Below are positions 4,960-34,424 of a DNA stretch of 64,000 nt, in pieces. The stretch comes from Polaribacter sp. SA4-12. GTDB taxonomy: Bacteria > Bacteroidota > Bacteroidia > Flavobacteriales > Flavobacteriaceae. Numbering within the stretch: the first letter of the stretch is position 1; each line of letters begins with the position of its first letter. The position numbers were made by a program, and so were the translations under genes. The stretch is from assembly GCF_002163675.1 (NCBI RefSeq), contig NZ_CP019334.1, forward strand, positions 1,250,001 to 1,314,000, in the 5' to 3' direction. The notes below the pieces were generated by a model. It worked only from the letters and a program-made list of their open reading frames with translations, did no database searches and was not told the DNA's origin.

Positions 4960-5418
4960 ATGAGAAAAATAATGTTTCTTTTAGGTATCCTTTTACTCAT
5001 AAATACGTCTTGTGAAAAAGATGATTTTTGTTTAAAAAACCCTGTAACTGAAAGTTTAGTTATAAACTTTTATGATGATTCAAATAAAGAAACTTTAAAG
5101 AATGTTACAGAATTATCTGTTTGGGCAGAAGGAAAAACAGACTTTATTTATGAAAATCAGACTATAAATACGATTACCATACCATTAAATAGTCTTACAA
5201 CAGAAACTGTCTATAATTTTTCAAAAGAGGGTGTTATAAATCAGTTTACAATAACCTACACTCCTGTAGAAGAATACGTTTCTAGATCTTGCGGTTACAA
5301 AGTAGTTTTTAATGAGGTTACTTTTTCATCAGATAATACTTGGATTAAAAGTTTTACTCCAGAGACATTAACAACAATAGAAAATCAAGATGAAGCACAT
5401 GTACAAATATATCATTAG
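4960..5418 (+). CDS. DUF6452-like lipoprotein
   Basis: A 152-residue lipoprotein with a signal peptide ending INTSC and a CEKDDFC start to the mature protein. A second pair of cysteines is seen in SRSCGYKVVF. By recollection this is the flavobacterial DUF6452 family, usually found directly before a DUF6048 gene, as here. The ATG at 4960 follows the dehydratase stop by one base; an upstream TTG would overlap it. The reading frame overlaps the start of the next gene, suggesting coupled translation. Function is unknown; an outer-membrane role with its partner is likely. Confidence 0.65.
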   Translation: MRKIMFLLGILLLINTSCEKDDFCLKNPVTESLVINFYDDSNKETLKNVTELSVWAEGKTDFIYENQTINTITIPLNSLTTETVYNFSKEGVINQFTITYTPVEEYVSRSCGYKVVFNEVTFSSDNTWIKSFTPETLTTIENQDEAHVQIYH

Positions 5419-6106
5419 CATTTGTTTACTTTTTGTTTTTGTTGATGGATTCTCACAAGAACAAAAAAAGGACACACTTATAGATTCTAAAACAGATTCT
5501 ATTACTTATAAGACGAATTACGGATTAAGGTTAGGTATAGATATTAGCAAACCTATAAAATCACAATTTAGTGGTACTTATAGTGGTTTAGAAATTGTAG
5601 GAGATTATAGAATTAAAAAAAATCTATATATCGCTGCAGAAGTTGGTTATGAAGAAGAAACTAGCGAAGAAGATTATACAAACTCAACCTCAAAAGGAAA
5701 TTATATAAGACTTGGTTTCAATTATAATGCTTACCAAAACTGGCTAGATATGAACAACGAAATCTTTATAGGATATCGTTATGGTTTTAGTCTTTTTGAG
5801 CAAACTTTAAATAGCTACACTCCTAATGTTAATTCGCAATATTTCCCTGCAAATAGCATTACGACTCCTTTAACAACATCCGATTTAAGTGCACATTGGT
5901 CAGAATTAGTTTTTGGTTTAAAAGTAGAAACATTTAAAAATTTCTTTATCACATTTAGTGGTTCTTACAAAGTTATGATGAGTGTAAAAGAACCAGATAA
6001 TTTTAAAACATTGTATTCTCCAGGGTTTAATAGAATATTTGAAACCGGAACCGGTTTTGGATTTAACTATACACTTACCTACTTAATTCCTTTTAAAAAG
6101 AAATAA
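5390..6106 (+). CDS. DUF6048-like outer-membrane beta-barrel protein
   Basis: A 238-residue protein with a signal peptide (about residues 1-22, ending GFSQ) followed by alternating hydrophobic and polar strands. Aromatic-rich segments such as GFNYNAYQNW and FGFNYTLTYLIPF at the C-terminus are typical of an outer-membrane beta-barrel. It overlaps the DUF6452-like lipoprotein by 29 bases; a second ATG at 5399 shortens the overlap a little. The pair recurs in flavobacteria and may form an outer-membrane complex of unknown function. Confidence 0.65.
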   Translation: MKHMYKYIISICLLFVFVDGFSQEQKKDTLIDSKTDSITYKTNYGLRLGIDISKPIKSQFSGTYSGLEIVGDYRIKKNLYIAAEVGYEEETSEEDYTNSTSKGNYIRLGFNYNAYQNWLDMNNEIFIGYRYGFSLFEQTLNSYTPNVNSQYFPANSITTPLTTSDLSAHWSELVFGLKVETFKNFFITFSGSYKVMMSVKEPDNFKTLYSPGFNRIFETGTGFGFNYTLTYLIPFKKK

Positions 6107-31703: not shown

Positions 31704-31908
31704 AATCTTTTCTTTAGACAACAAAACCTATAACTTATAAACCGTTGTTGTTGATAAGTTAATCTTTAACAAACTCTTTATTTTACTATCTTTATAGAGA
31801 CAAATTCTTCCTTTTTGCTATGAAAGAATTTCCACAAAATAAATGATATTATATTCATATTTTCCTGTAGATGGAGAATATGAGTAATTAAAGTATGTAT
31901 ATAAGCTA
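31704..31908. repeat. Duplicated leader block, copy 2
   Basis: Similar along its length to 30867-31092, including ACTTATAAACCGTTG, the TATCTTTA box and CATATTTTCCT. Similarity stops at AAGCTAG, exactly where the cassette core site GTTGTAG begins. The block could supply a promoter for the nuclease gene. Confidence 0.7.
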
Positions 31909-33780
31909 GTTGTAGTGCATTTGAGAAACGATGAAAATAAAGGACATTCACATATCAAAATTTCGGTCAGTAGAAAATGGAAAATTTCATTTTAATCAAA
32001 TAACTGGAATTGTCGGACAAAATAATTCGGGAAAGTCTGCGTTAATGCGCGCACTTAATTCATTTTTTAACCCAGATATTGAAATTCACAATTTTATAAA
32101 CGGAACTAACTTGTACTCACCTACAAGAGCAGTTCCCAGAATTATAATTGACTTTGAATCTGTACCAAATAAAGCAATTTATAATACTTTCTCTAACAAT
32201 GGAGAAATATGTATTAAACAAGAATTTAATAAGCAACGAAATAGATTAGAATATTCAGTAAAAAACAATGGAAGTTTTCAAATAGCAAGTGAAGATTTTG
32301 TAAAAGAACTATTTATAGATGTCCAATTCGTTTTAATACCAACTGAAAGAGGAGCAAAACATAAAGGTCAAGATGAAATAACAATTCTTAAAAGACTTTT
32401 AGACAACTTTTTCACAAATCATACAGCCAAAAGAGATACATTAAGCCCTAAAGTTAAAGATGCTTTTAAGTATTTCAAAAAGAATGCTCTTAGTAAAGTC
32501 TCTAAAGGAATTGAAGATATGTATCTTGCTAAGAAAGGTTTTAGTTTAGAAATTGACAGTCGATTTCCTTTAAATTATGAACTTTTTATTAATGACCTTG
32601 CCATAAAAATAGTTGAAGAAGGACAAAACTTCAAACTTGAAGAATGTGGAAGTGGAATACAAAGTTTAGTTGCTATTTCAATTTATAGATATTTAGCCAA
32701 ATTAAATCACACTAATTTTATAATTGGAATTGAAGAACCCGAAATAAATCTTCATCCTCAAGCACAAAAAGAATTAATTTTTGCACTTTTAGATGAAACA
32801 GATAATAATGATTTACAATTAATTTTCACAACTCACTCAACTGTATTAATAGATGAATTAGACCACACAAAAATTGTATTAGTAAGAAAGGAGAAAGATG
32901 AAAAAAGAAGTTTTAAAACTACAATACATCAATTAAATTCTCAGTTTTGGTCGAATTACAATTTACATACTTTACAATATGATAAATTTCACAAATTTAG
33001 AAATTCAGAATTCTTTTTTGCTAATCACGTAATTGTAACTGAAAGCCCTACTGATTCTGAAGTTTTCAGAAACCTTCTTAAATTAAAAGATGTTATCATT
33101 GAAAGAAACGGAATTTCTGTTCTTGAACTTAGTGGAATATCTTCTTTAAAATACGCTTTTTATCTTTTAAGAGATTTAAAGATTCCCAAAACAATGATAA
33201 TTGACAAAGATTTTTTCTTTGACTATCAAAATGGAAGTAAAGCAAATAGTCGTTATGCAAATGGTTTTTTCAACTATAAAAATACATTTAAGACAGAGAC
33301 ATTAATTTCTGAGATTTTAAACAATCAAACTAAAAGAACACAGATTGAAGGTTTATTAACATCAAATCATAGTCGCGCACTTGATTTAACTTTGGAATTT
33401 GACGTACTATGTATGAAATATAATATGGAAATGGATTTAGTTGCTTCAACAACTGCCAAAAATCTAATTTTTCAAAAACTAAATATTCCACAAGCAGATA
33501 GAAATACAAATAACCTTTTAACAAACTTTGAAGGTGGCTTAAAGAAATTAGAATTGCTTTTGTATGTTATTACAAATTTACCACATCAAAATTTACCGAA
33601 TTCATATAAGAGATTAATAAAGAGATTTAAGGAAATAACGAAATAAAAACGCACTACAACACCGTATATAATTTATTGCTAGTTCTAGCCTACTTACGAA
33701 AATCCTCGCGGATTTTCTATTCGGTTTTTATTTGCTAAATTACGTGCTTAACCACGCAACAAATCATATACAAAACGTTG
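31909..33780 (+). mobile_element. Integron-like gene cassette carrying an OLD-family nuclease
   Basis: The cassette starts with GTTGTAGTGC (31909-31918), 12 bases before the ATG. Its exact reverse complement GCACTACAAC (33651-33660) lies four bases past the stop codon and opens an attC-like structure. That structure ends in GTTGGGT (33777-33783), a perfect match to the integron core GTTRRRY. In integrons the first bases of a cassette are complementary to the inverse core of its own attC, as here. No integrase gene is in the window. Confidence 0.6.
31931..33646 (+). CDS. OLD-family ATP-dependent nuclease (AAA ATPase plus TOPRIM)
   Basis: A 571-residue protein. The N-terminal ABC/AAA ATPase begins ISKFRSVENGKF with Walker A GQNNSGKS, a signature-like EECGSGIQS, Walker B IIGIEEPEINLHP and the H-loop TTHSTVLI. 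A C-terminal TOPRIM region follows, with the acidic motif VIVTESPTDSEVF (about residue 370) and IDKDFFFDY (DxD). This order is that of OLD nucleases and of GajA from the Gabija defence system. No UvrD-like GajB partner or reverse transcriptase is adjacent, so it would be a class 1 stand-alone OLD. A role in phage defence is likely from family knowledge and from its cassette setting. Confidence 0.82.
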   Translation: MKIKDIHISKFRSVENGKFHFNQITGIVGQNNSGKSALMRALNSFFNPDIEIHNFINGTNLYSPTRAVPRIIIDFESVPNKAIYNTFSNNGEICIKQEFNKQRNRLEYSVKNNGSFQIASEDFVKELFIDVQFVLIPTERGAKHKGQDEITILKRLLDNFFTNHTAKRDTLSPKVKDAFKYFKKNALSKVSKGIEDMYLAKKGFSLEIDSRFPLNYELFINDLAIKIVEEGQNFKLEECGSGIQSLVAISIYRYLAKLNHTNFIIGIEEPEINLHPQAQKELIFALLDETDNNDLQLIFTTHSTVLIDELDHTKIVLVRKEKDEKRSFKTTIHQLNSQFWSNYNLHTLQYDKFHKFRNSEFFFANHVIVTESPTDSEVFRNLLKLKDVIIERNGISVLELSGISSLKYAFYLLRDLKIPKTMIIDKDFFFDYQNGSKANSRYANGFFNYKNTFKTETLISEILNNQTKRTQIEGLLTSNHSRALDLTLEFDVLCMKYNMEMDLVASTTAKNLIFQKLNIPQADRNTNNLLTNFEGGLKKLELLLYVITNLPHQNLPNSYKRLIKRFKEITK

Positions 33781-33783
33781 GGT
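33651..33783 (+). other. attC-like recombination site
   Basis: The outer arms GTATATAATTTATTGC and GCAACAAATCATATAC pair over 16 bp with two mismatches. They are preceded by CAAC and followed by GTTG. A perfect inner hairpin GAAAATCC-TCGC-GGATTTTC lies at 33698-33717. The 3' end matches GTTRRRY. The total of about 130 bases is within the attC size range. Confidence 0.6.
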
Positions 33784-33830: not shown

Positions 33831-34424
33831 ATGAAAAAAAGAAAAATATTCTTTAGCATATTAACCGCTCTTGTTTTAATGATATCAATATTCCTTTATA
33901 TGAATAGAGATAAATTTGTCTATGTAGGGTCAGTAAATATTATTGAAGTAGATTGTAGTAAAAAACGTCAAATTTTAAACGAAGTTTATGAAAGTGATCA
34001 AAGGATTAGAAAGTCAAATAAACTCATAAAATACGCTAAAGAAGATCACAAGAATCAAGAATTAGTAATTAGCATTATTGAAAAGTGTGGTATGCCAACA
34101 TTAAAGGAAGTAACTCAAAAACATATGACTGCAATATGGTTAGGGCTACAACATACTACTGAAAAGCATAGAAAAAAGTATTTTCCTCAGATAGAGAAAG
34201 CTGTAAAAAATGGAGATTTATCTAAACAGCAATATGCATTGATGAAAGATAGAATCTTAATGGATGAAGGTGAACCTCAAATATATGGTTCACAGATAAA
34301 AAACGGTAAATTGTATAAGTTAGAAAATCCTGAAACTGTAAACGAAAGAAGAAAGGAAATGGGAATGGGAACAATAGAGGATTATTTAAAGACTCATTTC
34401 AACATTGAGTTTAATCCGAATTAA
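33831..34424 (+). CDS. DUF6624-like membrane-anchored protein
   Basis: A 197-residue protein with an N-terminal membrane anchor (about residues 5-25) and a soluble domain. The domain pattern IIEKCGMP ... IWLGLQHTTEKH ... YFPQIEKAVKNGDLS ... LMKDRILMDEGEPQIYGSQ ... TVNERRKEMGMGTIEDYL matches my recollection of DUF6624. The function of that family is unknown. It begins about 50 bases after the attC-like site and could be the next cassette in a former array, although I find no attC after it. Confidence 0.6.
   Translation: MKKRKIFFSILTALVLMISIFLYMNRDKFVYVGSVNIIEVDCSKKRQILNEVYESDQRIRKSNKLIKYAKEDHKNQELVISIIEKCGMPTLKEVTQKHMTAIWLGLQHTTEKHRKKYFPQIEKAVKNGDLSKQQYALMKDRILMDEGEPQIYGSQIKNGKLYKLENPETVNERRKEMGMGTIEDYLKTHFNIEFNPN

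Follow-up and report, generated by a model that had tools for sequence, protein, structure and literature searches.

A single-gene OLD-like cassette in Polaribacter sp. SA4-12 and its relation to an integron-like array behind a XerA-like recombinase

Integrons are held to depend on one family of integrases, IntI. The IntI-specific domain is called unique to IntI and a defining characteristic (PMC9668308), the IntI-specific insertion is used for selection (PMC2426708), and the insertion in the catalytic domain is described as essential for integrons to function, although it is incompletely conserved in an integron-like subgroup (PMC8138268). As to Bacteroidota, a review counts the phylum among the integron carriers (PMC8618304), and IntegronFinder 2.0 reported a complete integron in Salinibacter, after earlier reports had been limited to In0 elements (PMC9024848). 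No description of the cassette system reported here was found in the searchable parts of the open-access literature, preprints and most subscription journals aside, and one may exist elsewhere. A working cassette system without the insertion would reveal which parts of the integrase the reaction needs, and it would place a gene-capture system with partly defence-like cargo in most of the sampled genera of Flavobacteriaceae. The system is also a source of unknown genes and offers a reaction open to laboratory tests.

We analyzed a window of 64,000 nucleotides from the chromosome of Polaribacter sp. SA4-12 and compared it with the described systems. With sedentary chromosomal integrons the system shares cassettes of one or two genes that follow one another in the same direction, a GTT core, complementarity between the start of a cassette and the inverse core of the attC belonging to it, attC sites that are conserved in structure and polarised by strand, an attI-like site at the head of the array and lone cassettes elsewhere. 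Unlike theirs, its recombinase has no IntI-specific insertion, mostly carries an N-terminal domain of about 75 residues and is encoded in the direction of the array, with attI behind the 3' end of the gene, whereas a classical intI is usually divergent from its array. The complementarity of the arms over 14 nt, a near-constant A/G mismatch and a stem of 22 pairs are further differences. As with CALIN, lone attC sites and insertion at attG, a lone cassette occupies a chromosomal site, whose left flank in this case is attI-like, but neither the site nor the recombinase family is that of IntI. The XerA or archaeal Xer-type model (NF040815) gave the recombinase its best NCBIfam score, 220.9 bits against a cut-off of 220. 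Known recombinases of this type act on dif-like sites, whereas here there are cassette arrays and an N-terminal extension. The cargo of the window resembles the single-gene OLD proteins and GajA of Gabija in combining an ATPase and a TOPRIM domain in one protein; unlike Gabija, the cassette holds one gene and no partner such as gajB.

As read from sequence, the system is integron-like in its anatomy and its footprint and departs from the integron in one defining point, the integrase: the IntI-specific insertion, on which the strict definition of an integron turns, is absent in the 17 array recombinases compared. Since the recombinase lacks this insertion, the term "integron-type" chosen in an earlier, sequence-only reading of the window is right for the cassette anatomy, but "integron" in the strict sense is wrong. 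We consider it very probable that the window locus is a mobile cassette of a Bacteroidota-wide integron-like system.

The window cassette, its boundaries and its gene

The sequence-only reading had started from an exact 10-mer and its reverse complement, placed 12 bases before the start codon and 4 bases after the stop codon of a gene, and direct reading bears out these positions and spacings. GCACTACAAC occurs twice in the window, at 33651-33660 on the forward and at 31909-31918 on the reverse strand, with an expected number of 0.05; the left copy lies 12 bases before the ATG at 31931 and the right one 4 bases past the TAA at 33644-33646. The complementarity extends beyond the 10 nt, GTTGTAGTGCATTT matching GTTGTAGTGCGTTT at 13 of 14 positions with an A/G difference at position 11. 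The imperfect inverted repeat that was said to end in GTTGGGT is indeed 124 bases long, from CAAC at 33657 to the GTTG ending at 33780, and its strong support is comparative, coming from 17 related sites. As had been proposed, the unit begins with bases complementary to the inverse core of the attC that it carries, and in this it fits the rule that the array cassettes of the same genome follow. The features are collected in Table 1, where R1 denotes a covariance model trained on 17 sites of this genome, the one in the window and 16 beyond it. A search of Rfam gave only one irrelevant sub-threshold match near the site.

Table 1. Features of the window cassette and its flanks, and the plasmid array of Persicobacter psychrovividus
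Feature	Position	Strand	Basis
Insertion site left flank, attI-like: ..AAGTATGTATATAAGCTA|GTT	31875..31911	+	Resembles sites behind cassette integrases of this and other genomes (by eye, unscored)
Cassette, 1868 bp: start arm, one gene, attC-like site	31909..33776	+	Start/attC complementarity; A/G signature as in 15 exact array cassettes
Cassette start arm GTTGTAGTGCATTT	31909..31922	+	10-mer search, arm complementarity
OLD-family single gene, 571 aa: AAA_15/AAA_21 ATPase and OLD-like TOPRIM	31931..33646	+	Pfam, PADLOC
Inverse core AAACGCACTACAAC, complementary to the cassette's own start	33647..33660	+	Direct reading, arm match
attC-like site, bottom strand modelled	33647..33783	-	R1 131.6 bits, E 4.3e-28; the site is itself one of the 17 R1 training sequences
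Left arm of long stem, GTATATAATTTATTGC	33664..33679	+	Covariation over 17 sites
Inner hairpin GAAAATCC-TCGC-GGATTTTC, variable terminal part	33698..33717	+	Folding; outside the 22-pair consensus
Right arm of long stem, GCAACAAATCATATAC	33756..33771	+	Covariation over 17 sites
Core GTTGGGT, part of downstream flank	33777..33783	+	Direct reading
DUF6624 gene, ordinary downstream flank	33831..34424	+	Pfam PF20329 3.4e-13
Array on plasmid pPP2 (L249)	NZ_AP025294.1 362260-392389		

The encoded protein has the arrangement of the OLD family, an N-terminal ABC-type ATPase and a C-terminal TOPRIM domain in one chain (PF13175, 5.2e-27; PF20469, 3.4e-11). PADLOC scored it at 161 bits with Old, 103 with AriA and 94 with the best GajA model, and the Retron Eco8 effector model NF038234 gave 54.9 bits, below its cut-off of 250. 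The protein probably acts in phage defence. A related OLD unit with 69% identity lies inside the array of a congener (G234), which together with the start/attC rule upholds the earlier reading of the gene as cassette cargo. The window unit is a real cassette, a single OLD-like gene with its own attC-like site. The gene that follows it, of the DUF6624 family, was considered as a second cassette and rejected: homologues with 86-88% identity were found in four congeners, and searches with R1 over about 1.5 kb on each side of these loci gave no match. By present evidence, it is no cassette.

The crossover falls somewhere in GTT and is taken by analogy as G^TT, which predicts TATATAAGCTA|GTTGGGTAAAAGC as the empty site. 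The flanks without the cassette were sought in congeners, and none was found; at other loci, the junctions are indeed at GTT. By eye, the insertion point GTATGTATATAAGCTA|GTT resembles the sequence ..ATATAACNA|GTT that precedes the first cassette in much of one clade of the array-linked recombinases. The remark that no integrase is in view holds for the window; for the genome it does not, the integrase being encoded about 0.9 Mb away on the same chromosome.

The cassette array, its attC-like sites and the traces of movement

The genome-wide look for an integrase and more copies of the arms that had been proposed with the cassette reading led to a 392-aa tyrosine recombinase and, directly behind it, to an array of 17 cassettes at 2182789-2200436. 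A BLAST search of the 3.99-Mb chromosome with the window repeat gave 23 places at E <= 1, 11 of which form a series in one direction at 2184987-2200439. With R1, the same genome gave 47 matches at E <= 1 and 41 at E <= 1e-3, the latter comprising 16 in the array, that of the window and 24 elsewhere; the total of 17 cassettes consists of the 16 R1 sites and one divergent site found by the start/attC rule. The start matches the cassette's own attC over exactly 10 nt in 15 of the 17, each showing A against G at position 11, and over 9 of 10 nt in the remaining two, one with and one without the A/G difference. Fourteen of the 15 exact cassettes contain a sense open reading frame of at least 141 aa and one has no such frame. 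The frame starts 12-59 nt past the cassette start in 12 of the 14 and at 1 and 113 nt in the other two, and in 10 of the 15 exact cassettes it stops within 20 nt of the end of the 10-mer of the site. Pfam matched four of nine array cassette proteins (SIR2_2, pP_pnuc_1, AIPR and PIN_8), and PADLOC matched two of ten (SIR2 and AbiU). Just past the last recognised cassette lie transposase-like frames that look by eye like an insertion sequence (L025:16511-17764). Two arrays of other loci (L119 and L124) contain an identical cassette start two or more times, which suggests duplication of cassettes.

Outside the array of this genome, 29 sites were checked for a start partner: eight have an exact 9-nt partner, two a credible one with one mismatch and 19 none. 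Five sites (G000:C1 1765848, 1672852, 1095792, 2903986 and 433117; L137, L032, L135, L140 and L030, respectively) are all followed by GTTAGYGAAYC, and two of them have about 28 bases before the cassette in common. The joined target pattern of these two solitary cassettes is absent from the genome within 3 mismatches. The GTTAGYGAAYC sites could represent either a recurrent target or a second type of element.

Folded alone, the window repeat is only modestly better than shuffled sequence and by itself unremarkable (bottom strand -17.5 kcal/mol, z = -2.2; top strand -14.6 kcal/mol, z = -1.6). Across the 17 sites of the genome, that of the window included, a consensus stem of 22 pairs was obtained, 11 of them with changes on both sides. 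The paired cells amount to 98.4%, compared with 84.4% in shuffles and 27-52% when the arms are slid by 1-3 columns, and the covariation score is 0.330 against 0.095 in shuffled alignments; the 17 sites are mutually related, and these counts are not independent. On the bottom strand, three pairs are G-U in every sequence that has letters there (16 or 17 of 17), and in 13 of 17 sequences a fourth pair is G-U as well; on the top strand, these pairs would be C-A mismatches. In 14 of 15 sites the bottom strand folds more stably than the top strand, the means being -19.1 and -15.0 kcal/mol, respectively. In structure and folding, the attC features of conserved structure and bottom-strand preference are present, and an unpaired stretch separates the GTTG and GTATAT helices. 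A conserved extrahelical base was not recognised in the consensus of the 17 sites. The strand polarity is indirect evidence of a likeness to attC.

These properties bear on the form in which the cassettes move. They could do so as double-stranded DNA through ordinary recombination at core sites, the stem being a pair of binding sites, and both the inverted repeats in some attI-like targets and the XerA-like nature of the recombinase would suit such a reaction. Covariation along the stem, the retention of G-T pairs that are C-A mismatches on the top strand, and the better folding of the bottom strand in nearly all sites speak against it, and we regard it as rather unlikely. Our preferred account is that single-stranded DNA is probably the substrate and that cutting would occur at G^TT. 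The XerA-like recombinase at the head of the array, 0.9 Mb from the window, would recognise the folded bottom strand of the attC-like sites, excise cassettes, and insert them at the attI-like site behind its own gene, at another attC or occasionally at attI-like chromosomal sites, the OLD-like cassette of the window being an insertion of the last kind.

Comparisons between genomes show cassettes ending at the core. The array cassette at 2193817-2194724 has counterparts in four congeners, with 92-94% identity in three (G234, G260 and G254) and 83% in the fourth (G238). In these five genomes, our own included, it is followed by five different cassette starts, and the homology stops at ..AC|GTT or no more than a few bases from it. 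Its left end, too, is at GTT in G238; in G234, G260 and G254 another attC lies on the left, and the left break is therefore invisible. Four weaker homologues of the gene (72-75%) showed no such boundaries and no R1 match. Two plasmids of Tenacibaculum finnmarkense are 98.7% identical over 7.9 kb and then differ, the break lying at ..GTATATTTGGGT|GTTGGC, also written ..TACGTATATTTGGGT|GTTGGC. Past it, one plasmid has a full rule cassette. In the second, a sequence resembling a cassette start follows, for which no partner of its own was found; R1 sites lie about 3 and 6 kb beyond it.

Immobile palindromic repeats scattered over the genome (of the REP, MITE or terminator-like kind), standing behind genes by chance or as processing signals, would account for the many copies and the strong inner hairpin. 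We have dropped this explanation as barely conceivable because it leaves unexplained why the start of each unit pairs with its own following site, why one unit has different neighbours that break at GTT and why the plasmid backbone held in common ends at GTT.

The linked recombinase and its attI-like sites

The genome contains six tyrosine recombinase matches. The one at the array ends 33 bp before the first cassette, in the same direction as the array, and consists of Phage_int_SAM_4, a catalytic domain and an extra N-terminal part. Its score with the integron integrase model TIGR02249 is 206.6, below the cut-off of 265, and the match is in two pieces. Some sources label close relatives "site-specific tyrosine recombinase/integron integrase", a label that comes from the XerA model and is no evidence. 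An alignment to the solved IntI4 places positions 275 to 299 of the family profile opposite residues 180 to 247 of IntI, a shortfall of about 43 residues. In an alignment of 92 proteins, the interval from KDR to HxLRH is 58-59 residues in the 17 array recombinases of this and other genomes, 57-63 in other recombinases with rule pairs and 66 in a host Xer of this genome, compared with 100-105 in eight IntI. An interval of 56-66 residues is also seen in several recombinases that have no array in view, which makes the short interval the ordinary state of a Xer and no mark of the cassette system. The catalytic R, K, H, R, H and Y are invariant in 35 of 35 recombinases, and an initial impression that integrases were pseudogenes with internal stops was discarded for the 16 integrase regions that were retrieved with long flanks, none of which has such a stop.

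The eight IntI group in one clade (SH-aLRT 100) in a tree of 91 proteins, and 38 of the 42 recombinases that carry an array-linked label fall into two Bacteroidota clades (support 92 and 97), the four outside being L196, L208, L215 and L218. The tree gives no supported placement of these clades relative to IntI, and the recombinase may have an origin separate from that of IntI.

The extra N-terminal domain of about 75 residues (L024:11599-11830) is present in most array recombinases and absent in some, such as L125; L194, L215 and L218 have much longer extensions. In an AlphaFold model of the whole recombinase (mean pLDDT 83.8) it is arranged as beta-beta-alpha-beta-beta-alpha-beta, with a nearly invariant Trp42. 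A search by sequence among solved structures gave no credible counterpart; a presumed likeness to HARP or DUF5710 is not claimed here, and there was one sub-threshold match (E 0.062).

The sites could also be the remnant of an ordinary integron, lone attC or CALIN, on which a classical IntI acts in trans or acted formerly. The attC-like anatomy agrees with this, and predicted attC sites of Polaribacter phage P12002L have been assayed with IntI1, one of them recombining with attI1 (PMC9892861). The 17 array recombinases compared are nevertheless without the insertion, and TIGR02249 exceeded its cut-off in 0 of 199 Flavobacteriaceae genomes; none of the 14 controls of that run matched, whereas in a positive control all 8 genomes with IntI exceeded it, at 372-508 bits. 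The IntI account is largely refuted, and we hold it to be highly improbable.

Behind the recombinase genes, the first cassette was located in 25 of 33 loci, 23-155 bp past the gene in 22 of the 25; in five of the eight loci where it was not located, the motif could be read by eye. Besides the ..ATATAACNA|GTT of much of one clade, there is, again by eye, in part of the other clade an inverted repeat that follows the recombinase gene and ends in ..ATCCAATT|GTT. Position and motif suggest that an attI-like site adjoins the integrase gene. They also bear on the proposal that the host XerC/XerD moves the cassettes in place of the linked recombinase. The genome does encode two further XerC/D-like recombinases of 302-303 aa, and 53 of 168 R1-positive genomes have no strong integrase match. 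Host enzymes would nevertheless not account for first cassettes placed so close behind the recombinase gene, or for the difference in attI type between the two main recombinase clades. We judge the proposal very unlikely and favour the linked recombinase as the enzyme that probably moves the cassettes.

Distribution of the sites and the recombinase

R1 (E <= 1e-3) found sites in 168 of 199 sampled Flavobacteriaceae genomes, which represent 198 genera. At E <= 1e-4, it matched 39 of 296 genomes of the phylum Bacteroidota, 24 of them outside Flavobacteriaceae, and 0 of 24 genomes outside Bacteroidota. Eight of 15 further Bacteroidota genomes, that of L189 left out, were also positive at this threshold, with 33 matches in Winogradskyella ursingii, 26 in Algibacter onchidii and 21 in Zunongwangia mangrovi; six of the seven genomes from outside Flavobacteriaceae among the 15 had none. 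Two of these six, Rufibacter and Arundinibacter, have 5-6 rule pairs behind the recombinase, and R1 mainly covers the Flavobacteriaceae type of site.

Close to the integrase, R1 matched in 16 of 29 loci with flanks of about 1.5 kb and in none of the other 13. Among 16 longer integrase regions, 15 gave 189 matches between them, and L127 gave none. Start/attC rule pairs lie behind the recombinase in 25 of 80 loci, many of them short, and 14 have two or more. Over 18 array regions (355 kb), 212 A/G rule pairs were counted in cassette orientation, repeated cassettes being counted more than once, against 14 when the sequence was reversed and 14 when it was shuffled. Other types of mismatch gave 2-45 pairs, except for G/A, which represents the same pairs read on the other strand. 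In 21 loci (L219-L239), 19 titled as non-Bacteroidota and two (L224 and L227) as Bacteroidota, no rule pair was found behind the recombinase.

The integrase (E <= 1e-45) is present in 115 of the 168 R1-positive and 6 of the 31 R1-negative genomes (Fisher p = 4e-7, with a threshold chosen after the scores had been seen and a 2x2 table counted by hand). In the 53 R1-positive genomes below this threshold, the cassettes may be orphaned or moved by something else, or the integrase may have been missed.

A bolder reading is that there is a second Bacteroidota integron platform apart from IntI, in which a recombinase of the Xer lineage, equipped with an N-terminal domain of its own, either took over the recombination of cassettes through a folded strand or invented it independently, and built chromosomal and plasmid arrays as well as lone defence cassettes throughout Flavobacteriaceae and beyond. 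Such a platform would have escaped surveys because these look for IntI and IntI-type attC. We find the case for it evenly balanced.

Three observations from other replicons may be added. In a metagenome-assembled genome of Firmicutes bacterium HGW-Firmicutes-8 (L221), a 286-aa recombinase without the IntI insertion is encoded at 5102-5962, divergent from four pairs that obey the cassette rule (sites ..TTCGTTTAGCCAATATGC|GTTAG), which is the classical orientation; this is perhaps a second non-IntI platform, outside Bacteroidota. Plasmid pPP2 of Persicobacter psychrovividus (Cytophagales) carries 20 rule cassettes in 30 kb, most of them annotated as hypothetical. Such sites are also carried by a phage: Tenacibaculum phage JQ (L245, MT002873.2) has four R1 matches (E <= 1e-3) within 3.8 kb, which adjoin two methyltransferase genes.
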